Origin: Streptomyces malaysiense
GTDB lineage: Bacteria; Actinomycetota; Actinomycetes; Streptomycetales; Streptomycetaceae
Direction: 5' to 3'
Assembly (NCBI RefSeq): GCF_000980885.2
Contig: NZ_LBDA02000001.1
Coordinates: forward strand, 110,091 to 174,090
Length of the DNA: 64,000 bases
In this document: positions 11,984 through 44,513 of the stretch, one piece after another
How positions within the stretch are numbered: the stretch's first letter is position 1
Layout of the letters: each line of letters starts with the position of its first letter
Made by a program: the position numbers and the translations under genes
Notes under the pieces: generated by a model
What the model saw: only the letters and a program-made list of their open reading frames with translations
What the model was told of the DNA's origin: nothing
Databases searched by the model: none

Positions 11984-12826
11984 ATGCCCGCCGCTCGCCC
12001 CCGTGTCCTCTACGTCACCGACCTGGCGTACCAGGCCCGCGGGCGCCGCTACTGCGACGAGGACATCTTCCTCACCTCCCGGCTGCGCGCCCATTTCGAC
12101 CTCGCCCTGTGCCATCCGCTGGACACGGCGGCACTCATGGACGGCCACGACGCCGTCGTCGTCCGCAACAGCGGCCCCGTCCTCGGCTACCAGCGGGCCT
12201 ACGACGCCTTCCGCGCGCGGGCGCTGGAACACGGCAGCCGTGTGTACAACCCGCTCACCGGCAAGGCCGACATGGCCGGCAAGCAGTACCTCCTCGACCT
12301 GACCGCCGCCGGGTACCCGGTCATCCCGACCGTCGACCGCCTTGCCGACCTGCACCGGCTGCCGCCCGCGCACCGCTACGTGGTCAAGCCCAGGCTCGGC
12401 GCGGACTCCCTCGGCCTGCGCATCGTCCCCGCCACCCGCCTCGACACCCACGCGGGGGACGACGTCCTCATCCAGCCGCACATCGACTTCGCCTACGAGG
12501 TCTCCTTCTACTTCGTGGACGACGACTTCCAGTACGCCCTCTACGCCCCCGACCCGCGCCGCCGCTGGGAGCTGAAGCCGTACGCGGCGACCGCCGCCGA
12601 CCTGGAGTTCGCCCGGCGCTTCATCGACTGGAACGAACTCGGCCACGGCATCCAGCGGGTCGACGCCTGCCGGGCCCCCGACGACGGCCTCCTGCTGGTC
12701 GAACTGGAGGACCTCAACCCCTACCTGTCGCTGGAGGCCCTGCCGGAGCGGGACAGGGACGCCTTCGTGGGCGCGTTCACGGCGTCCCTGAGCCGGTTCG
12801 TGCGGGGGGCGGTCAGCGCGATGTGA
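11984..12826 (+). CDS. ATP-grasp family protein, orphan
   Basis: This 280-residue protein has an AAGGAG site 8 nt before the ATG. The core is RimK/glutathione-synthetase-like. Residues ~128-145 read RYVVKPRLGADSLGLRIV, the ATP-binding strand with Lys, and near the C-terminus LLLVELEDLNPYLSLEAL supplies acidic and Asn metal ligands. The N-terminal ~110 residues form a pre-ATP-grasp domain (PRVLYVTDLAYQARGRRYCDED). ATP-grasp enzymes ligate a carboxylate to an amine or thiol via an acyl-phosphate; no partner or peptide substrate gene is adjacent. The 3' end overlaps the convergent lyase gene by 14 bp. Confidence 0.8.
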   Translation: MPAARPRVLYVTDLAYQARGRRYCDEDIFLTSRLRAHFDLALCHPLDTAALMDGHDAVVVRNSGPVLGYQRAYDAFRARALEHGSRVYNPLTGKADMAGKQYLLDLTAAGYPVIPTVDRLADLHRLPPAHRYVVKPRLGADSLGLRIVPATRLDTHAGDDVLIQPHIDFAYEVSFYFVDDDFQYALYAPDPRRRWELKPYAATAADLEFARRFIDWNELGHGIQRVDACRAPDDGLLLVELEDLNPYLSLEALPERDRDAFVGAFTASLSRFVRGAVSAM

Positions 12827-15236
12827 CGCCGATCAGCTGGCTGACTCCGGCCGTGCCGGCGAGGTCGCCGAAGGTCAGGGTGAGGGACTCGCCGGTCTCG
12901 GCCGAAGCGAGCGTGGCCGGGGCCGAGACGACCGAGGTGACCGGACGCCGCCAGGTCAGGGTCAGACCCGTGCGCGTCAGTGTCGGATCGCTCACGGCGA
13001 TCACCGCGGTACCGTCCCCCCGCTCGCTGATCATCACGGAACACGGATCGCTCGCCGTGAGCGATCCGACCGTTCCGCCGGACCAGAAGTTCACCCCGGT
13101 GAAGCCGAGCGAACGGACCGAAACGCCCTGCTGACCGTCCGCGTTGGCCGATACGGTCAGCCAGTGCCGGTCCGCCGACCGTGCGCGCGTTCGCGCGGCG
13201 CTCGCGCCCGGCATGAGCAGATAGGAGTACGAGGCGTCCACCGGATCGGTGCCGTGATCGACGTACATCGTCAGGTACTTCCTGGTCAACACGGCGGTCG
13301 AGCCGGCCGTGTTGATCGAGCTCCAACTGCCCTCGCGCGCCTCGCGCAGCGCCCGTACCGTCGCGCCCCCGGGAAAGACATAGCCGCCGTGCCCGCCGAT
13401 GTGCGCCCAGCCGGTGCCTTCGAGCGTCTGCGACCAGGGGTACCCCGCCGGTTCCGCGCCGCCGTCCACCGTGAACGTCGCGCCGCCGGCCGCGCCGAGG
13501 TTGCGGTTCTCGATCGTCGTCTCCACGGTCGTGCCGTCGGTGCAGGAGATGCCGGCGCCGAGGCAGACCACCGTGTCGTCCAGGAAGAACCACGACTTCC
13601 TCGCGACCAGTGTCGACCGGAGGCCCTTGAGGTACTGCCCGACCGCGGCCCGGCGGCCGTCCGTCGCGCCGCCCACCCAGTTCACGTCCGGTCTGGCCGC
13701 GCCCCAGTCGCCGCCCGCACCGTCGGCCAGGGCCTTGCGCGAGACGGTCGTACCGGGGAGCCGGCAGGGGTCGACGGTGGGCCAGAAGGCGTCGCTGTAC
13801 TGGTCGTCGGCGAAGGTGCCGCCCCACCAGTACAGCATCCCGGAACCGGTGTGCCAGCCGCGCGGGTTCTCGCCGTTGCCGCACTCGTAGTAAGCGATCC
13901 GCTCGCTCGCCATGCTCAGCGAGGCCGCCCAGCCGGGCCGGCGGTGCGTGGCCCGTGCCATGGCCGGGAACAGCCGGTGCCCGGTCGGCTCCGGGACCGC
14001 CCGCACCGTCGTATCGTCCTCGACCTCCTGGAGCCGGGCCAGGTTCGGCAGGCTGAGCACCGGGTCCGCGAGCGGCGGACGGTACCGGTCGCGCCGCATC
14101 CAGCCCTTCACCAGAGCGCGCCAGCGCGCGTTCCGCGCCGCGCCCGCGCCCTGGCCGAGCAGCACGATGGCGGCGAGGACGGGGTGCCCGCGCAGGTGGT
14201 CGTCCTGCTGTACGCCCGCCGGGTCATCGGCGGACAGGCCCCGGCTGACCGCGCGGCCCGCGACGCCGTCCATGACCAGGCCGTTGTACAGGAACGGCGC
14301 CCAGGCCCTCTCGACCGAGTCGAACACGGCCGTCCGGTTCTCGTCCGTCACCTCCCAGTTCGACCCGGCCAGCAGCGCGAACAGCATGCCGAGACCGCCC
14401 AGGAACACCGAACCGTACGAGCCCGTGTACGGCACCCAGGTGTGCTGGACGAACGAGCCGTCGGCGTACAGGCCGTCACCCGAGGAGACGTAGGGGAAGA
14501 CGGGGGACAGGGCGTCCCGGGCCAGTGCCACCTTCGCCGCGTCCGCCCCGACCACCCCGCGCAGCGCCAGCACCCGGCACAGATCGACCCGGTTGGCGCC
14601 GGTGCTCGTACCGCTGTAGTCCGACACCGCCGAGTCGGGAACGAACTGGTCCACCGCCGCCAGGTACCCGGCGAGTCGGTCGGCCGGCAACGCGTCGTGG
14701 AGCAGCACGCACGTGTCCAGGAGTGCCTGCGGGGCGCCGATCTGCCAGCTCCACCAGTTGCCGTAACGGGCCCGGCCGGCGTGGTACACGTCGTCGTGGA
14801 GGTGGCCGAGGCCGGTGACGACGGCGTCGCGCAGGTTCGCGTCACCGGTGAGACCGGTGCCCGGCTGGCCGTACGCCTGCGCGAGAGTGCTCAGCCGGGT
14901 GTAACTGGTGCTCATGTTGCCCGAGCAGACGTACGATCCCGGGTCCGTGCCCGGATCCGGTTCGGCGTACGGGAGGTCCGGCCACAGGGCCCCGGCCGTC
15001 GGCGACATCGAGGCGAGGTACCGTCGCGCCGTTCCGCCCAGGCCGGCCAGGCGGGAGGCGAAGGGCTCGGCGGCGGGGTCGAAGCCCTCGCCGAGGATCA
15101 GGGTGCGCCACTTGGACCGCAGGGCGGTGAACTCGTCCGGCACGGCGGAGGCGGGGGAGGGGGTGCCCAGTCCCAGGGCGGCGGCGGTGCCGGAGCAGAC
15201 GGCCAGGAAACCACGACGTGACCGAGGAGTCGTCAT
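12813..15236 (-). CDS. secreted polysaccharide lyase family 8 (hyaluronate/chondroitin/xanthan lyase-like)
   Basis: This 807-residue exported enzyme cleaves uronic-acid polysaccharides by beta-elimination. A twin-arginine-type signal (SRRGFLAVCSGTAAALGLG) covers residues 1-32. The alpha/alpha toroid holds NWWSWQIGAPQALLDT at ~160-175. Asn215 (TGANRVD), His265 (SFVQHTWVPY) and Tyr274 have the 50- and 9-residue spacings of the PL8 catalytic Asn/His/Tyr. The C-terminal half is the beta-sandwich. The true substrate (hyaluronan, chondroitin or xanthan) is not decidable by eye. The ATG at 15236 follows CGCCGTC with only a weak ribosome site. Its stop overlaps the end of the ATP-grasp gene. Confidence 0.9.
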   Translation of the reverse strand: MTTPRSRRGFLAVCSGTAAALGLGTPSPASAVPDEFTALRSKWRTLILGEGFDPAAEPFASRLAGLGGTARRYLASMSPTAGALWPDLPYAEPDPGTDPGSYVCSGNMSTSYTRLSTLAQAYGQPGTGLTGDANLRDAVVTGLGHLHDDVYHAGRARYGNWWSWQIGAPQALLDTCVLLHDALPADRLAGYLAAVDQFVPDSAVSDYSGTSTGANRVDLCRVLALRGVVGADAAKVALARDALSPVFPYVSSGDGLYADGSFVQHTWVPYTGSYGSVFLGGLGMLFALLAGSNWEVTDENRTAVFDSVERAWAPFLYNGLVMDGVAGRAVSRGLSADDPAGVQQDDHLRGHPVLAAIVLLGQGAGAARNARWRALVKGWMRRDRYRPPLADPVLSLPNLARLQEVEDDTTVRAVPEPTGHRLFPAMARATHRRPGWAASLSMASERIAYYECGNGENPRGWHTGSGMLYWWGGTFADDQYSDAFWPTVDPCRLPGTTVSRKALADGAGGDWGAARPDVNWVGGATDGRRAAVGQYLKGLRSTLVARKSWFFLDDTVVCLGAGISCTDGTTVETTIENRNLGAAGGATFTVDGGAEPAGYPWSQTLEGTGWAHIGGHGGYVFPGGATVRALREAREGSWSSINTAGSTAVLTRKYLTMYVDHGTDPVDASYSYLLMPGASAARTRARSADRHWLTVSANADGQQGVSVRSLGFTGVNFWSGGTVGSLTASDPCSVMISERGDGTAVIAVSDPTLTRTGLTLTWRRPVTSVVSAPATLASAETGESLTLTFGDLAGTAGVSQLIGVTSR

Positions 15237-15467
15237 GACGGCGCTTTCTAGCACGCGCCCGCTCAGACGCTCAATAGGTGTGTTTTCGGACATCACTTGG
15301 GCATCCGGGTGTTCGGTCCAATGGCGAGGGCGAGTTGAGCCATTGGGGCGATTCGGTGGCGGCGCGCGGGGAACGCCGGACCACGGGACGACGAGTGCGC
15401 GAAACGATCGGCACGCGGGCACGGCACTCGCGGGCGACGGGTGCGGCGGCGGACGGAGCGGAGCGGT

Positions 15468-15971
15468 ATGGCGCGGGCGGAGGACGGTTTCCTGGGGCGG
15501 CTCGACCCCGACATGTGCGTGGTCACGGCCGCGGCCCGCGGTGAGCGGGCGGGCTGTCTGGTCGGCTTCGCCTCGCAGTGCTCCATCCGGCCACCCCGGT
15601 TCGCCGTGTGGCTGTCCAAGGTCAACCACACCTATCGAGTCGCCCGCGCCGCGCACTGCCTCGTCGTCCACCTGCTCACCCGCGACCAGCGCGCCCTCGC
15701 GGAACGCTTCGGCGGCGAGACCGGGGACGACACCGACAAGTTCGTCGGCCTCGACTGGGTGCCAGGACCTGACGGCGCGGTCGTCCTCGCGGACGCGGCG
15801 GCCTGGTTCGTCGGCGGCATCCTGCACCGCGTCGACGGCGGCGATCACGTCGGCTTCGTACTCGACCCCCTGGAGTGGGGCGGGGGAGCGGCGGGCCCCC
15901 TGTTGCGACTGTCCGACACGGCCGGCATCGAGGCCGGGCACCCAGTGGACCGACTTGCCGGCGGGTTCTGA
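15468..15971 (+). CDS. flavin reductase-like FMN-binding protein
   Basis: This 167-residue split-barrel protein of the flavin reductase family shows DMCVVTAAARGERAGCLVGF at the N-terminus, CSIRPPRFAVWLSKVNHTYR (FMN and NAD(P)H site region), and LVVHLLTRDQRALAERFGGETGDDTDKF cut by a characteristic DK(F) motif. Such proteins supply reduced FMN or reduce small substrates. It ends 13 bp before the SMI1/KNR4 gene, suggesting co-transcription. No cognate monooxygenase is adjacent. ATG at 15468; the ribosome site is weak. Confidence 0.82.
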   Translation: MARAEDGFLGRLDPDMCVVTAAARGERAGCLVGFASQCSIRPPRFAVWLSKVNHTYRVARAAHCLVVHLLTRDQRALAERFGGETGDDTDKFVGLDWVPGPDGAVVLADAAAWFVGGILHRVDGGDHVGFVLDPLEWGGGAAGPLLRLSDTAGIEAGHPVDRLAGGF

Positions 15972-15984
15972 CAGCATCGCGGTC

Positions 15985-16548
15985 ATGATCGATGTCGATG
16001 ACCTCGTGCAACGCGTCGCCGTCCGGGCCGCTGCGGACAACGAGGACCTTCCCGCACCGGTCGGGGCCGCGCGGATCGCGGAGGCCGAGGCGCGGCTGGG
16101 CTTCGCGCTGCATCCCCTGCTCGCGCGCCTGTACCGCGAGGTCGCTGACGGCGGCTTCGGCCCCGACTACCGTCTGCTGCCGCTGCTCGGTCCGGGCTCC
16201 AGCGTCGTCGGCGAATACCTCGCCCGGCGCGAGGAGTCCGTCTCGGCGGATCACCCGCAGTGGCCCGAAGGCGTCGTACCGATCCTGACCTGGGGCTGCG
16301 CCATGTACGCCGGTGTCGACTGCCGCGGCGAGGACGGCCAGGTCCTGCTCTTCGAACCGAACCCGTACAGCGGCGGGTCGTGGGCCCGGTGCTGGTTTCT
16401 CGACTCCGCCGGCATCGCGGCATGGCTGGAGACCTGGCTCGCGGGAACCGGCTGGTTCGACGAGGACGCCTGCGACAGGGACGACGTGGCCGAACCGCAG
16501 CCATGGGACCAGGCCGCGAGCCGCTTGTCGCGCGGCGCCTCAAGGTAG
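15985..16548 (+). CDS. SMI1/KNR4 family protein
   Basis: This 187-residue protein matches the SMI1/KNR4 (SUKH) fold: ARIAEAEARLGFALHPLLARLYREVADGGFG is the defining helix-turn segment, followed by LLPLLGPGSS and VPILTWGCAMYAGVDC. SUKH proteins often act as immunity proteins to secreted or contact-delivered toxins, but many in actinobacteria are stand-alone. No toxin gene is adjacent, so an immunity role is not supported here. It begins 13 bp after the flavin reductase. Confidence 0.82.
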   Translation: MIDVDDLVQRVAVRAAADNEDLPAPVGAARIAEAEARLGFALHPLLARLYREVADGGFGPDYRLLPLLGPGSSVVGEYLARREESVSADHPQWPEGVVPILTWGCAMYAGVDCRGEDGQVLLFEPNPYSGGSWARCWFLDSAGIAAWLETWLAGTGWFDEDACDRDDVAEPQPWDQAASRLSRGASR

Positions 16549-26485: not shown

Positions 26486-26614
26486 GGCGGGGCCCGAGGG
26501 GACCGTACCGCCTTCCCGGGCTCCCGGGTGGGCGGCGGGTTCGCCCGGGATCTTCGGCCGTCCTGTGATGAGGTGGTCCTTTCAGGTTCCGCCCGGTTCG
26601 GGGCGAGGGGGAGG

Positions 26615-28138
26615 ATGATGACCGGCAACACCGACGCCGTGCTCACCGGGCCGCGGGACGCCCGATCGCGGCCTTTGTCCGGCGGCGCCCGCCCCCTCCG
26701 GGCCGCCCTCCCGCTCGCGGCCGTCGCCGCCGCCTTCACCCTCGCCCAACTGCTCCTGGTCCGGCCCGGCATGGGCCTCGGCTGGGACGAGGCGGTGTAC
26801 GTCAGTCAGGTCGGTGTCCGCGCTCCCGCCGCCTATTTCAGCGCGCCCAGGGCCCGCGGCATCTCCCTGCTGGTCGCGCCGGTCGCCGCGTGGTCGTCCT
26901 CGACGGTCCTGCTGCGCTGCTACCTCGCCGTCCTCTCCGGCCTCGCCCTGTACGTGGCGTCGCGGGCCTGGCGCGGCCTCTTCCCGCCCCGCGTCATCGT
27001 CCTGGGCGCCGCTCTCTTCGCCTCCCTGTGGGTGACCCTCTTCTACGGCCTCCAGGCCATGCCCAACTACTGGGTGGCGGTCGGGGCGTCGGTGACCGTC
27101 GGCTCCTACCTGCGCGCGGGCGCGCCCCGTTCCGGCCGGGCCGCGTTCGGGGGCCTGGCCGCGGGGGCCGTGCTGATGGGCTGGACGCGGCCCATGGACG
27201 CGGTGTGGGTCGTACTGCCGCTGCTCGCCACCGGTCTTCGGCACCGGCACTGGCACCGGCTGTCCGTACTGCTCGCGGGGCTCGCGGCCGGGGTCGCCGA
27301 GTGGGTGGTCGAGGCGTACGTACGCTACGGCGGCCTGCTGCACCGGCTGTCCGAGGGCTCGGCGATCCAGGGCGGCCTCGGCTGGCACCTCGCCGTCGTC
27401 GACCAGTTGCGCAGCCTCGGCGGGCGCACCCTGTGCCGGCCCTGCGCCGGCGCGCTGCCCGGCCCGCTCGTCACCTTCTGGTGGTGCGCGCTGCCCCTCC
27501 TGGCCGCGCTCGCCCTGCTGTTCGCGGTGCGCGCCGGACGCACGGCGGTCACCGCGCTGCCGCTGGCGTGCGCGGCGTCGGCCGCCTTCCCGTACCTGTT
27601 CCTGATCGGCTACGCGGCACCCCGCTTCCTGCTGCCCGCCTACGCCCTGCTCGCCTTCCCCGTCGCCGCCGCCCTGCTCCGCCTGGCGAGCGCCCCGCCC
27701 CCGCGCCGGCGCCCGGTGGCCCGCGGCGCGCTCCTGCTGGTGGCCGCCGTCCACCTCGGGGTCCAACTGACCGTCCTGGTACGCACGACGGACGTCGCGA
27801 CCGCCGGTCACCGTTCCTGGTCGCGCACCGCCGCGACCCTGCACCGCCTCGGCGTGCGCGCCCCCTGCCTGGTCACCGGTGAGGACGCCCTGCCCGTCGC
27901 CTTCTACGCCGGCTGCTCCTCCGCCGCGACCTCCGGCCCCAACGCCGACACGACAGCGGACGCCATTGCGCGCACGGCCCGGCGCGTTCCGACGGCCACC
28001 CTCGTGCCGGCGGGGGCGGATCCGCCCGGATACGCCCGCGGCTGGCCGTGGGTCGCGGCCGGAACCGGGCGGCTGTACTACACACCGGGGCGTGGGGAGG
28101 GGTTTCCGGTGCGGCCGCGTCAGGTAGGAGACGGGTGA
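26615..28138 (+). CDS. polytopic membrane protein, GT-C (GT39/mannosyltransferase-like)
   Basis: This 507-residue protein has about ten hydrophobic segments and an early extracytoplasmic loop GMGLGWDEAVYVSQVG. The Asp-Glu pair there is typical of GT-C glycosyltransferases that use polyprenyl-phosphate sugars. A second loop with LSEGSAIQGGLGWHLAV and a C-terminal soluble tail (residues ~420-500) follow. The GAGGGGGAGG ribosome site directly precedes tandem ATGs at 26615 and 26618; either may be used. The proteasome beta gene starts 34 bp downstream, so they are probably one transcript. The sugar donor and acceptor are unknown. Confidence 0.75.
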   Translation: MMTGNTDAVLTGPRDARSRPLSGGARPLRAALPLAAVAAAFTLAQLLLVRPGMGLGWDEAVYVSQVGVRAPAAYFSAPRARGISLLVAPVAAWSSSTVLLRCYLAVLSGLALYVASRAWRGLFPPRVIVLGAALFASLWVTLFYGLQAMPNYWVAVGASVTVGSYLRAGAPRSGRAAFGGLAAGAVLMGWTRPMDAVWVVLPLLATGLRHRHWHRLSVLLAGLAAGVAEWVVEAYVRYGGLLHRLSEGSAIQGGLGWHLAVVDQLRSLGGRTLCRPCAGALPGPLVTFWWCALPLLAALALLFAVRAGRTAVTALPLACAASAAFPYLFLIGYAAPRFLLPAYALLAFPVAAALLRLASAPPPRRRPVARGALLLVAAVHLGVQLTVLVRTTDVATAGHRSWSRTAATLHRLGVRAPCLVTGEDALPVAFYAGCSSAATSGPNADTTADAIARTARRVPTATLVPAGADPPGYARGWPWVAAGTGRLYYTPGRGEGFPVRPRQVGDG

Positions 28139-28172
28139 CGGGTGGTACCGCGTGTCCATGGAGGGGAAGCAG

Positions 28173-29027
28173 ATGACGGGGAACGACACCGCCGGGCTCA
28201 TGGACGAGGCGTTCTTCACGCCGGGCAGCTCGTCCTTCGCCGAGTTCCTGGCCGCCCACCGGCCCCGGCTGCTGCCCACCACGTCCCCGCTGCCGCCCGG
28301 CACGAGCGCGACCCCGGGCCGTTTCCCGCACGGCACCACGGTGCTCGCGCTCACCTACGGCGACGGCGTGCTGCTCGCCGGGGACCGCCGGGCCACCATG
28401 GGCAACCTGATCGCCCAGCGGGACCTGGAGAAGGTCCACCCCGCCGACGACCACACGGCCGTCGCCTTCGCCGGCACCGTCGGACTCGCCCTCGACATGG
28501 TGCGGCTCTACCAGGTCGAACTGGCCCACTTCGAGAAGATCGAGGGCACCCCGATGACGCTGGGCGCGAAGGCGACGCGCCTGGCCACCATGATCCGGCA
28601 GAACCTCGCCCAGGCCATGCAGGGCCTCGCCGTCGTCCCCTTGCTCGCCGGGTACGACCTCTGCGCGCCCACGGGTGACGGCGGCCGCATCTTCGCCTAC
28701 GACGCCGCCGGTGGCCTGTACGAGAAGCGGGAGTTCCACGCCGAGGGCTCCGGCTCGCCGTACGCCCGCGGCGCGCTCAAGAAGCTCTACCGGCCCGGCC
28801 TGAGCCGCCGGGAGGCCGCCCTCGCCGCGTTGCACGCTCTGTACGACGCGGCCGATGACGACTCGGCCACGGGCGGGCCCGATCTCAACCGCCGTATTTT
28901 CCCGGTTCTCTCGTTCATCACCGAGGAGGGTTACGAGCGGTTGCCTCAGGCCGAGGCCGAGGAGCTGAGCCGTGAGATGGTGCGGCGCCGTGAGGAGCGC
29001 CCGGACGGCCCGTATGTCGCGCCCTGA
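28173..29027 (+). CDS. prcB: orphan 20S proteasome beta subunit with an altered S1 pocket
   Basis: This 284-residue precursor has a ~60-residue propeptide ending PHG, then the mature chain starting Thr-Thr-Val. Numbering from Thr1, the active site Thr1, Asp17 and Lys33 is intact (LLAGDRRATMGN, QRDLEKV). Position 45 is Phe and position 49 is Val (VAFAGTVGL), whereas Ala49 is usual in PrcB. The C-terminus keeps the beta-subunit LHALYDAADDDSATGGPDL motif. No prcA, pup, dop or mpa lies within the window, so it must pair with an alpha subunit encoded elsewhere. GGAGGGG ends 6 nt before the ATG at 28173. It is probably co-transcribed with the upstream membrane protein. Confidence 0.92.
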   Translation: MTGNDTAGLMDEAFFTPGSSSFAEFLAAHRPRLLPTTSPLPPGTSATPGRFPHGTTVLALTYGDGVLLAGDRRATMGNLIAQRDLEKVHPADDHTAVAFAGTVGLALDMVRLYQVELAHFEKIEGTPMTLGAKATRLATMIRQNLAQAMQGLAVVPLLAGYDLCAPTGDGGRIFAYDAAGGLYEKREFHAEGSGSPYARGALKKLYRPGLSRREAALAALHALYDAADDDSATGGPDLNRRIFPVLSFITEEGYERLPQAEAEELSREMVRRREERPDGPYVAP

Positions 29028-41148: not shown

Positions 41149-43884
41149 CTACGGCAGCGGCTGCTCCGCCCAGATGATCTTGCCGTTCGGCGTGTAGCGG
41201 GTGCCCCAGCGGTCGGCGAGCTGGGCCACCAGGAACAGGCCCCGGCCGCCCTCGTCGGTGCTCGCCGCGTACCGCAGATGCGGGGAGGTCGTGCTGCGGT
41301 CGGAGACCTCGCAGATCAGGGTGCGGTCGCGCAGCAGCCGTACCCCGATCGGCGGCCGCCCGTAGCGGATGGCGTTGGTGACCAGCTCGCTGAGGATCAG
41401 CTCGGTCGTGAACACCAGGTCCTGGAGGCCCCATCCGTCCAGCGCCCCGGTGACCGCGGTGCGCATCTCGGAGACGGCCGCCGGATCGGCGGGCACCTCC
41501 CACTCGGCCACCTGGGCCGGACCCAGCACCCGGGTCCGGGCCACGATCAGCGCCACGTCGTCGCTCGGCCGGGCCGGCATCCGCTCCAGCACGGTACGGC
41601 AGGTCGTCTCCGGGGAGCTGTCCGGCGCCCGGCGCAGGGCGTCGCCCAGCAGTTCGAGGCCGACGTCGATGTCCCGCTCCCGGTCCTCGACCAGCCCGTC
41701 CGTGTACAGCACCAGCCTGCTGCCCTCGGCCAGCTCCAGCTCGACCGTCTCGAACGGCAGCCCGCCCAGGCCCAGCGGCGGCCCGGCCGGCATCTCCGCG
41801 AACTCCACCCGCCCGTCGGGATGCACCAGCGCGGGCGGCGGATGCCCCGCACGGGCCATGGTGCACCGCCGCGACACCGGGTCGTACACCGTGTACAGGC
41901 AGGTCGCGCCGGTCACCGCGGCACCCTCGTCCGGGTTCTCGTCCTGGTCGATCCGGCCCACCAGTTCGTCCAGCAGGCCGAGCAGTTCATCGGGGGGCAG
42001 GTCCAGCGCGGAGAAGTTGTGCACGGCCGTGCGCAGCCGCCCCATGGTCGCCGCCGCGTGCAGCCCGTGCCCCACCACGTCGCCCACCACCAGCGCCACC
42101 CGGGCCCCGGACAGCGGCAGCACGTCGAACCAGTCGCCGCCCACCCCGGACTGCGCCGGCAGATACCGGTACGCGATCTCCAGCGCGCCCTGCTCGGGCA
42201 GCGTCCGCGGCAGCAGGCTGCGCTGGAGCGTCACCGCCATGCTGTGCTCGCGCGTGTACCGGCGGGCGTTGTCGATGGACACCGCCGCCCGCGCCACCAG
42301 CTCCTCGGCGAGCGCCAGCTCCTCGTTGTCGAACGGCTGCGGTTTCTCCGAACGCCAGAAGTTCGCCACCCCCAGCACCAGGCTGCCCGCCCGCAACGGC
42401 ACGGTGATCAGCGAGTGGATGCCGTACTCCACCACCTTGTCCGTGCGCTCCGGCTCCTGCGCCCGCCAGCCCGGCGCGTCCCGCAGCCGCGGCTCCACCA
42501 CCGACTGCCCGGTCGTCAGGCTGTGGGCCTGCGGGGAGGTGGACACGAACCGTATCCGGTGGTCCACCGGATACAGCGGGGAGTCCTTGCGGATGCCCAC
42601 GCTGGCCACCCGGCGCATGTCGCTCCCCGGCCGCGGCTCCTCGCCGTGCAGCACCGGCTCGAACAGGTCCACCGTGGCGAAGTCCGCGAACCGGGGCACC
42701 GCGAGCTCCGCGAGTTCCCCGGCGGTGCGGGTCACGTCCAGGCTGGTGCCGATGCCCACCCCGGCGTCGTACAGCATGTTCAGCCGCTCCCGGGCCACCT
42801 CGGCCCGTCCGGACACCGCCCGCAGCTCGGTGGAGTCGCGCAGCGTGGTGACGCTGCCGGCCGGGCCGCCGCGCAGCTCGGTGGGCCGCTGGTTGATCGC
42901 CAGCAGGCGGTCCTTGACCAGGTGCACCTCGTCCGTGGCCATCCGCCCCGACGCCAGCAGCCGTGCCGTGTCGTCGTCCAGACCCAGCTCCAGGACATGC
43001 CGGCGCTCGGCGTTCCTGGGCAGGTCGAGCAGCCGCTGCGCCTCGTCGTTGGCGAGCAGCAGCCGGCCGTCGTGGCCGACGATCAGCACTCCCTCCCGGA
43101 CCGCGTGCAGCACCGCGTCGTGGTGCTCGTACATCCGGGTCATCTCGTACGGCCCGAGGCCGTGCGTCTGGCGCAGCAGTCGTCTGCTGACCAGCGCGGT
43201 GCCCGCGGTGGCCAGCGTGAGCGCCGCGGCGGCCGCGGCGAGCAGCAGGGGCAGCTGCTGGTCGGCGGCCCCGCCCACGTGCGCGGTGGTGATGCCGGCC
43301 GACACCAGCCCCACCACGGTGCCCTTCGCGTCCTTGACCGGGACCACGCTCTGCACCAGTGGGCCGATCGTGCCGTTGATCTTCTCCACGACCGTGCCGC
43401 CGGCCACGGCCGGGCCGATGGTGCCGACGAACTTCTTGCCTATGCGGTCGGGACGGGGGTGCGTGTAGCGGATGCCCTGCGTGTTCATCACGACGATGAA
43501 GTCCACGCCGGTCGCCTTGCGGGCGGCCTCGGCCTTCGGCTGGAGGATCGCCGTCGGGTCCGGTGAGCGCAGCGCGGCGGCCGTGCCGGGCGCGTTGGCG
43601 AACGTCTGTGCCACCGCGAGGGAGCGGTTGCGGGCCTCGGTGTCGCTGTCGTGGCGCACCTGGAGCACCTGGGCCACCACGGCCGAGACCACCAGCAGCA
43701 GCACGATCACGACCTGGAGCACGAAGACCTGGCCGGCGACGCTGCGTCCGGTCACCGCCGCCCACAGCATTCCCGGCCGGTCGCCGTTCGCGCCGGGGCC
43801 GTCCGGCGGCGGGGCCAGTGGTGCGCGCGGGTGCCCGAAAGGTCGGGGCGGCCGGGACACTGGCCGGCCGGGCAGTCGCACCAT
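41149..43884 (-). CDS. Cache-sensor / PAS / GAF / SpoIIE phosphatase / RsbW-like kinase fusion
   Basis: This 911-residue membrane signalling protein has a transmembrane segment at ~47-67, then an extracellular DcuS/CitA-type sensor (VDFIVVMNTQGIRYTHPRPD with the THPxP..IG motif, ~110-150). A second transmembrane segment lies at ~200-222. A PAS domain (~238-330), a GAF domain (~345-500), a SpoIIE/PP2C domain (SGVGGDWFDVLPLSGARVAL, VVGDVVGHGLHAAATMGRLR) and a C-terminal HATPase (SELVTNAIRYGRPP, DEGGRGLFLVAQL) follow. One chain thus combines a phosphatase with the opposing anti-sigma-type kinase. I used ATG 43884; ATG 43770 is possible. Confidence 0.88.
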   Translation of the reverse strand: MVRLPGRPVSRPPRPFGHPRAPLAPPPDGPGANGDRPGMLWAAVTGRSVAGQVFVLQVVIVLLLVVSAVVAQVLQVRHDSDTEARNRSLAVAQTFANAPGTAAALRSPDPTAILQPKAEAARKATGVDFIVVMNTQGIRYTHPRPDRIGKKFVGTIGPAVAGGTVVEKINGTIGPLVQSVVPVKDAKGTVVGLVSAGITTAHVGGAADQQLPLLLAAAAAALTLATAGTALVSRRLLRQTHGLGPYEMTRMYEHHDAVLHAVREGVLIVGHDGRLLLANDEAQRLLDLPRNAERRHVLELGLDDDTARLLASGRMATDEVHLVKDRLLAINQRPTELRGGPAGSVTTLRDSTELRAVSGRAEVARERLNMLYDAGVGIGTSLDVTRTAGELAELAVPRFADFATVDLFEPVLHGEEPRPGSDMRRVASVGIRKDSPLYPVDHRIRFVSTSPQAHSLTTGQSVVEPRLRDAPGWRAQEPERTDKVVEYGIHSLITVPLRAGSLVLGVANFWRSEKPQPFDNEELALAEELVARAAVSIDNARRYTREHSMAVTLQRSLLPRTLPEQGALEIAYRYLPAQSGVGGDWFDVLPLSGARVALVVGDVVGHGLHAAATMGRLRTAVHNFSALDLPPDELLGLLDELVGRIDQDENPDEGAAVTGATCLYTVYDPVSRRCTMARAGHPPPALVHPDGRVEFAEMPAGPPLGLGGLPFETVELELAEGSRLVLYTDGLVEDRERDIDVGLELLGDALRRAPDSSPETTCRTVLERMPARPSDDVALIVARTRVLGPAQVAEWEVPADPAAVSEMRTAVTGALDGWGLQDLVFTTELILSELVTNAIRYGRPPIGVRLLRDRTLICEVSDRSTTSPHLRYAASTDEGGRGLFLVAQLADRWGTRYTPNGKIIWAEQPLP

Positions 43885-44513
43885 GTGCCCATGTCTACAC
43901 TGCCCGGCCCCATCAGGCGAGGGCGTCACCCCGGGGTGCGGGTCCCGGAGGCGTCGGACGAGGCGCGCCGGGGCAGGGAGCACACCGAGGGCGTGCGGGG
44001 AACGGCGCGGCCGGCCGCGGCCGGCCCGCCGGCAGGCGGCGCGCCACTTTCGCCCGGCCGCGGTCGGCCACCGGGAAGGGACCGGCCGGCTACCCATGGC
44101 GGAGCCCTCTGAGCCCTCTGAGCCTCGGGGCGAGGGGCGGGGCCACGTCGTCGGGGCGGGACGCTGCGTGCCGGGCGGCGGCGGTGAGGCGGCCGGTGAC
44201 CCCGGACAGCGTGCGGACGGCGTCCGGTGCGAGGACCGGCTCGGTCACCGGACAGCGCGCCCCGCGGCCATCATGATCGTCCGCCATCGGCCCTACCTCG
44301 TCCTGTGCGTCTCCGGATGGATCACACAGCAAGAATGGGCCAGGAGGAGCGGAGGGCGCACCCCGGGCGGCGTGCGGGCGGGACGGCGGGGGATCACACC
44401 GGTGCCCCACCCGGGTGGCGGCACGCGGGAGCGGCTCCTAGTAATGGACTGCGTACTGCGCGTGCCGCGGTCGGGGGCGTCAGGTGCGGCCGCACTCCTG
44501 CACTGGAGCCGAG
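43885..44513. other. 629-bp region, mostly non-coding
   Basis: This gap between a leftward and a rightward gene holds one possible small ORF (44090-44287, minus) and promoters for both flanks. CCTAGTAATGG near 44436-44446 resembles a -10 for the rightward gene. The remaining frames are compositional. Confidence 0.4.
44090..44287 (-). CDS. possible small protein (65 aa), unknown
   Basis: ATG at 44287 is preceded by GAGG 8 nt upstream. The product begins MADDHDGRGARCPVTEPVLA and continues with a helix-like PDAVRTLSGVTGRLTAAARH segment. The tail is Arg/Leu/Gly-rich. It has no recognised domain and could be a compositional frame. The N-terminal half has more protein-like residue use than neighbouring frames. 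Low confidence. Confidence 0.3.
   Translation of the reverse strand: MADDHDGRGARCPVTEPVLAPDAVRTLSGVTGRLTAAARHAASRPDDVAPPLAPRLRGLRGLRHG

Follow-up and report, generated by a model that had tools for sequence, protein, structure and literature searches.

PrcB2, encoded in a 64,000-nucleotide stretch of Streptomyces malaysiense DNA (hereafter the window), is best explained, judging from sequence comparisons, as a member of an old and widespread family of alternative proteasome subunits with a pocket resembling that of SalI, which shifts the reading of the gene away from self-resistance. With moderate confidence, we consider PrcB2 to be a second complete 20S beta subunit that is predicted to co-assemble with the only PrcA of the organism, so that the resulting proteasome, alternative or mixed, would have a remodelled S1 pocket and would prefer other cleavage sites.

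Results

The prcB2 gene and its product

By model match, catalytic residues and predicted fold, prcB2 is a gene for a bacterial 20S proteasome beta subunit. It occupies positions 28173..29027 on the forward strand of the window (stop codon included) and codes for an orphan PrcB-type precursor of 284 residues. A ribosome-binding-like GGAGGGG lies on the same strand at 28160..28166, 5' of the ATG at 28173. There is an alternative GTG start at 28152, and the N-terminus of a homologue with 94% identity (P0001) matches the residue encoded by the ATG and not that of the GTG. The propeptide has 54 residues and ends in His-Gly (28173..28334, +), and the mature subunit has 230 residues (28335..29024, +). 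Counting from the mature N-terminal Thr1 (codon 28335-28337), which is directly preceded by Gly, we find Asp17 (28383-28385), Lys33 (28431-28433), His35 (28437..28439), Phe45 (28467..28469) and Val49 (28479..28481), all on the forward strand.

The protein scores 352.1 bits against the NCBIfam equivalog model TIGR03690 (20S_bact_beta), well above its cut-off of 191.9 bits, and 129.8 bits against PF00227. Its AF2 monomer, built from an alignment of 15 sequences, has a mean pLDDT of 80.2 with residues 20-29 below 50, and is predicted to adopt the proteasome fold, with a TM score of 0.88 to the Rhodococcus beta subunit 1q5q_H. The preliminary description of this DNA, made from the letters alone, had reported a complete PrcB-type subunit retaining Thr1, Asp17 and Lys33, with Phe45 and Val49 in the mature chain, and it holds on each of these points. 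Conservation among homologues was followed in two protein lists, each restricted to the 120 top-scoring of about 8,000 sequences, so that the counts describe close relatives; Thr1, Asp17, Lys33, Gly47 and the His-Gly before Thr1 are present in 120 of 120 entries in both.

Proteasome genes of the S. malaysiense genome

The genome assembly (7.96 Mb in 235 contigs, 99.98% complete) contains three PF00227 genes, namely prcB2 on the contig of the window (C1) and a beta-alpha pair on contig C2, which corresponds to one alpha and two beta subunits in S. malaysiense. The resident canonical prcB lies at C2:8318-9250. Around the pair are a proteasomal ATPase gene, pup and two Pup_ligase-family genes, which we take to be dop and pafA from their start motifs. 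Searches of the genome with PF03136 and PF05639 gave no match outside C2, and the PF00227 search gave no alpha subunit gene on C1. The window therefore lacks prcA, pup and dop, as had been noticed originally, since every match to these three families other than prcB2 itself lies on C2. The canonical locus is thus found in the rest of the genome, with prcB, the only prcA, pup and the two Pup-ligase-family genes together on C2, and the presence of this normal prcB means that prcB2 is an extra copy and not the only prcB of the genome.

PrcB2 and the resident PrcB are about 60% identical, and their propeptides resemble each other. The identity of about 60%, together with the placement of PrcB2 in a clade apart from canonical Streptomyces PrcB (see below), rules out a recent duplication of the resident prcB as the origin of the gene.

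A coordinated change in the S1 pocket

Positions 35, 45 and 49 presumably line the S1 pocket, and the signature that they form separates PrcB2 from the canonical subunits. Among 87 non-redundant betas with an adjacent prcA, the residues at 35/45/49 are Phe/Ile/Ala in 81, Tyr/Ile/Ala in 5 and His/Ile/Ala in 1, so that Ile45 and Ala49 occur in all 87. This bears out the statement of the preliminary description that canonical betas have Ala49, and also answers the question raised there of whether Phe/Val might be common in Streptomyces PrcB. At 55 PrcB2 loci the same positions read His/Phe/Val in 52, Leu/Ile/Val in 2 and Gln/Phe/Val in 1, the two Leu35/Ile45 loci (L020 and L030) having no aromatic residue at either position. 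In the list obtained with PrcB2 as query (best 120 clusters of about 8,000), Phe45 and Leu31 are found in 120 of 120, His35 in 119 and Val49 in 119, with one Ile. The list obtained with a profile of orphan betas from outside Streptomyces (best 120 of about 8,000), which contains some entries of canonical look, has Val49 in 111 (7 Ala, 2 Leu), Leu31 in 110 and Phe45 in 106; the combinations Gln/Phe/Val and Asn/Phe/Val account for 88 and 13 entries, respectively. The combination Met45 and Ala49 was seen in 2 of 17 further Streptomyces betas and in one of two betas from the genus of genome G410.

Taken as a set, the shift consists of Phe to His, Gln or Asn at 35, Ile to Phe at 45 and Ala to Val at 49. 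The change at residue 35, which occurs together with those at 45 and 49, was absent from the preliminary description. From these alignments, the aromatic side chain seems to have shifted from position 35 to position 45, with residue 35 becoming polar and residue 49 bulkier. Over 227 compared positions there are 11 fixed differences between PrcB2 and the canonical subunits, 2 of them among the 9 positions that we assume to form the pocket (p = 0.064), while a post hoc criterion of scarcely overlapping residue sets gives 9 such positions with 3 in the pocket (p = 0.0032). The enrichment of pocket positions among the diagnostic changes thus depends on the criterion, and is suggestive rather than proof.

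Distribution of the family

At least 24 Streptomyces loci encode PrcB2 at 76-94% identity, after which identity drops to 64% or less among the best 80 matches; the number of loci argues that prcB2 is not a chance open reading frame. Of 295 Streptomyces genomes drawn evenly from the genus, 54, or nearly one in five, have a close member (at least 77% identity), with one copy each. All 54 carriers show exactly one further beta match, which adjoins prcA in 17 of the 17 carriers that were fetched, and prcA was next to PrcB2 at none of 66 places, 7 of which are near the edge of the available stretch. Two beta matches were also present in 12 more of the 295 genomes: two have a more distant member of the PrcB2 clade (L117 and L118), nine have a different orphan beta group, and one (G133) has a decayed prcB2 at the syntenic position (L140/L183). 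The decayed copy, at about 9900-10700 of L183, is out of frame over approximately residues 30-52; Asp17 is gone, the Gly before Thr1 is kept, and the piece in the other frame still reads AFAGTVGLA.

Outside Streptomyces, three genomes in a draw of 394 from the class have two beta matches. The profile of these three orphan betas recovers sequences from Actinomadura, Spirillospora, Thermomonospora and Actinoallomurus, and one match, from Thermomonospora (P0126), is named "Proteasome subunit beta 2" by its source. This protein shares Leu31 and Val49 with PrcB2, with His35/Met45/Val49 where PrcB2 has His35/Phe45/Val49, and by sequence it probably belongs to the same family. As these comparisons indicate, PrcB2 is an old second-beta family that is present besides the normal prcBA and reaches the Thermomonosporaceae. 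Among the open-licence papers listed by our literature search, we saw no functional study of the family. Carriage of prcB2 on plasmids was considered and dropped, as it yielded three distant matches only. A plasmid record of S. chartreusis (NZ_CP108841.1) contains at 794019-794171 a short C-terminal remnant resembling a beta subunit, which has no annotated gene and is 57.7% identical over query residues 179-230.

Phylogeny, descent and selection

A tree of 104 sequences, calculated with the pocket columns left out, places the clade of the window gene, L117/L118 and the three non-Streptomyces orphans in one clade of 36 (support 99/92) that stands apart from the canonical Streptomyces betas. Val49 is present in 36 of the 36, including the PrcB2 of the window, which falls inside the clade and is without an adjacent prcA. 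Eleven sequences make up a second orphan group (99/95), which pairs with the canonical Streptomyces betas as their sister (support for the two together, 100/96); although the tree shows two groups, a single clade of all orphans is compatible with the data in an AU test (p = 0.161). Val49 was rejected as a mark exclusive to PrcB2, since four sequences of the second group (L031, L127, L128 and L132) have it too, the others having Ala49 (three) or Thr49 (four). A further orphan beta lineage (L136-L139, from genomes G184, G047, G050 and G105) has Thr49, Glu53 and a one-residue insertion near position 25, and the gene order around this lineage is kept (L174-L176).

For 18 Streptomyces genomes, distances between PrcB2 sequences track those between the canonical prcBA (Mantel r = 0.757, p = 0.0002), and the nearest neighbors of the two agree in 10 of 18. 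The fact that PrcB2 distances follow prcBA distances indicates mainly vertical descent within Streptomyces. Among 55 PrcB2 sequences dN/dS has a median of 0.23, compared with 0.106 among 50 canonical betas from Streptomyces. By these ratios PrcB2 is under purifying selection, at a constraint weaker than that on prcB because the value is twice as high. The patchy distribution and the one decayed syntenic copy in G133 indicate that prcB2 is dispensable.

Genomic neighborhood and chromosomal position

Directly upstream of prcB2 is a gene for a hydrophobic protein (26528..28138, +), which has no Pfam or NCBIfam match and ends 34 bases before the ATG at 28173. Of 24 loci (L007-L030), 17 have it in the flanking DNA, though not always adjacent; two of the seven loci without it (L008 and L026) have little upstream DNA. 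No gene was found to be a constant partner of prcB2, this one included. Besides the beta gene, one gene cluster recurs at L175, L176 and 10 PrcB2 loci, and another at five orphan loci and 3 PrcB2 loci. The neighbors within the window include a GH65 enzyme, a penicillinase-repressor-like regulator, a PAP2 phosphatase and iron-uptake genes, and those scanned in relatives are permeases, oxidoreductases and the like. Elsewhere in the window, both on the reverse strand, are genes for a 1075-residue protein with all three polysaccharide lyase family 8 domains (12816-16040) and for a 982-residue SpoIIE phosphatase with Cache, PAS, GAF and HATPase domains (41152-44097). Beside the second-group orphan betas L127 and L132 are genes resembling an ethylmalonyl-CoA pathway set (L171 3131-10262, identified by Pfam, and L170 12216-19901, identified through shared clusters), consisting of an acyl-CoA mutase, an HpcH/HpaI lyase, a mesaconyl-CoA hydratase-like protein, an acyl-CoA dehydrogenase, a zinc-binding dehydrogenase and a TetR regulator.

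With respect to inhibitor biosynthesis, C1 has no NRPS condensation (C) domain, and the ketosynthase (KS) closest to prcB2 (C1:45375-46121) is about 92 kb away. No acyl-CoA dehydrogenase gene in the genome has both a C domain and a KS at a distance of 15 kb or less; the one exception is a fragment on contig C230, where 39 residues match in a frame of 59 codons. Within about 20 kb of prcB2 in five carriers whose contigs are of chromosome size, six open reading frames exceed 900 codons; the longest, of 1408 codons, was scanned for domains and is a GH65 enzyme. No location of prcB2 in an inhibitor biosynthetic cluster was thus seen in the stretches checked.

In 9 of 11 single-contig carriers prcB2 is at most about 1.3 Mb from an end, the exceptions being G007 (4.6 of 10.0 Mb) and G272 (3.0 of 5.3 Mb). 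It is nearer to the end than prcB in all seven carriers compared, at 0.30-1.05 vs. 1.73-2.35 Mb. This arm position fits a conditional role and does not demonstrate one.

Discussion

PrcB2 shares with canonical actinobacterial PrcB (TIGR03690) the fold, the catalytic residues, the processing site and the plan of the propeptide. It differs in having no adjacent prcA, pup and dop, in carrying Leu/His/Phe/Val instead of Ile/Phe/Ile/Ala at residues 31/35/45/49, and in a loop near residue 112 that is three residues longer. SalI of Salinispora tropica is said to have Phe45/Val49. Like PrcB2, SalI is an extra beta beside a complete canonical set. Positions 45 and 49 are said to distinguish it from the normal subunit of S. 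tropica (PMC6449301); the account given there is inconsistent in itself, giving 58% identity yet "only two" differing residues and a "greater binding affinity" for the drug, and the positions are all that can be used from it. SalI, which we compare by description, lies inside the salinosporamide cluster (PMC6804068, PMC7888443), whereas prcB2, as far as checked, is in no such cluster. EpnC and TmcC of the epoxyketone clusters, also compared by description, are likewise orphan extra betas in Streptomyces, but sit with NRPS, PKS and acyl-CoA dehydrogenase genes (PMC8988807), neighbors that prcB2 does not have. In Rhodococcus erythropolis NI86/21 two kinds of beta subunit occur in one organism and, as described in PMC12915292, together in isolated 20S particles that also contain two kinds of alpha subunit, which is a precedent for mixing; S. 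malaysiense, in contrast, has one alpha gene.

In the mechanism that we propose, PrcB2 would be autoprocessed at Thr1 and would use the resident PrcA, since no other alpha subunit was found. Phe45 and Val49 would make a tighter pocket and His, Gln or Asn at position 35 a more polar floor, with large hydrophobic P1 residues disfavored. The gene might be made under some stress or at some developmental stage. Inhibitors reaching into S1 would be bound less tightly as a side effect, which inhibitor producers could have recruited, so that tolerance would be incidental or a secondary use of PrcB2. In the vertebrate immunoproteasome, an alternative catalytic subunit is exchanged into a common core; the likeness to PrcB2 is an analogy of working only, as the system is not homologous. 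Rather more tentatively, and with considerable doubt, one may picture a bacterial counterpart of the immunoproteasome in Streptomyces and Thermomonosporaceae, in which an ancient beta, inherited apart from prcBA, is exchanged into the PrcA core and provides a tight S1 pocket with a polar floor. SalI-type resistance would then represent an ancestral pocket recruited into clusters and not a new mutation.

The preliminary description had proposed an inhibitor-resistant paralog or one of altered specificity. Altered specificity fits. Resistance has become a less likely reason for the existence of the gene. A SalI-type subunit would replace PrcB when the host makes or meets an inhibitor, its pocket having been selected against drug binding, and we regard this as unlikely in the case of PrcB2. 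Such a role would agree with the shared positions 45 and 49, with the 30-fold resistance ascribed to SalI (PMC6804068) and with the beta subunit present in 9 of 17 epoxyketone-type clusters, in which acyl-CoA dehydrogenase genes are common (PMC8988807). In a genome-mining table (PMC8510958), the resistance model given for clusters from S. avermitilis and S. bingchenggensis is a proteasome beta subunit. As many NRPS and PKS genes are present elsewhere in its genome, S. malaysiense may produce some inhibitor, and environmental inhibitors are another conceivable source. Against this, Phe45/Val49 is near-fixed across a large, old and mainly vertically inherited family, which has close members in 54 of the 295 Streptomyces genomes and extends to the Thermomonosporaceae, C1 is without a C domain, the nearest KS is about 92 kb off, and an acyl-CoA dehydrogenase near both C and KS exists only as the C230 fragment. 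A SalI-like pocket that is common to the whole family is probably no sign of self-protection against a drug of the host. Weaker inhibitor binding by PrcB2 is nevertheless plausible since SalI is said to differ at the same two positions, and collateral resistance is accordingly possible from the sequence.

It is also conceivable that PrcB2 is a redundant copy with a relaxed pocket that does nothing more than contribute a little to the normal activity of the proteasome. The dN/dS of 0.23 against 0.106 for prcB, the patchy distribution and the decayed copy are all in line with this, but the value is still far below 1 and the pocket residues are nearly invariant among the best 120 matches (Phe45 in 120, Val49 in 119), where relaxation predicts otherwise, which makes redundancy quite improbable. 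That PrcB2 works without PrcA, in a beta-only assembly like the HslV-type peptidases, would account for there being no alpha gene linked to prcB2. We hold this to be very improbable indeed, given scores of 30.4 and 25.5 bits against the HslV models compared with 352.1 bits against the PrcB model, a propeptide similar to the one on the resident PrcB, and an alpha gene elsewhere in the genome.

If the alternative or mixed proteasome that we favor is real, it would mean that some bacteria retune their proteasome by exchanging the catalytic subunit, as vertebrates do, and that they do so with two beta genes and one alpha gene, a proteasome system among the simplest known. For genome mining there is a warning that an extra beta with Val49 is, taken by itself, no flag for an inhibitor cluster. 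The PrcB2 family may, moreover, be the evolutionary source of SalI-type resistance.
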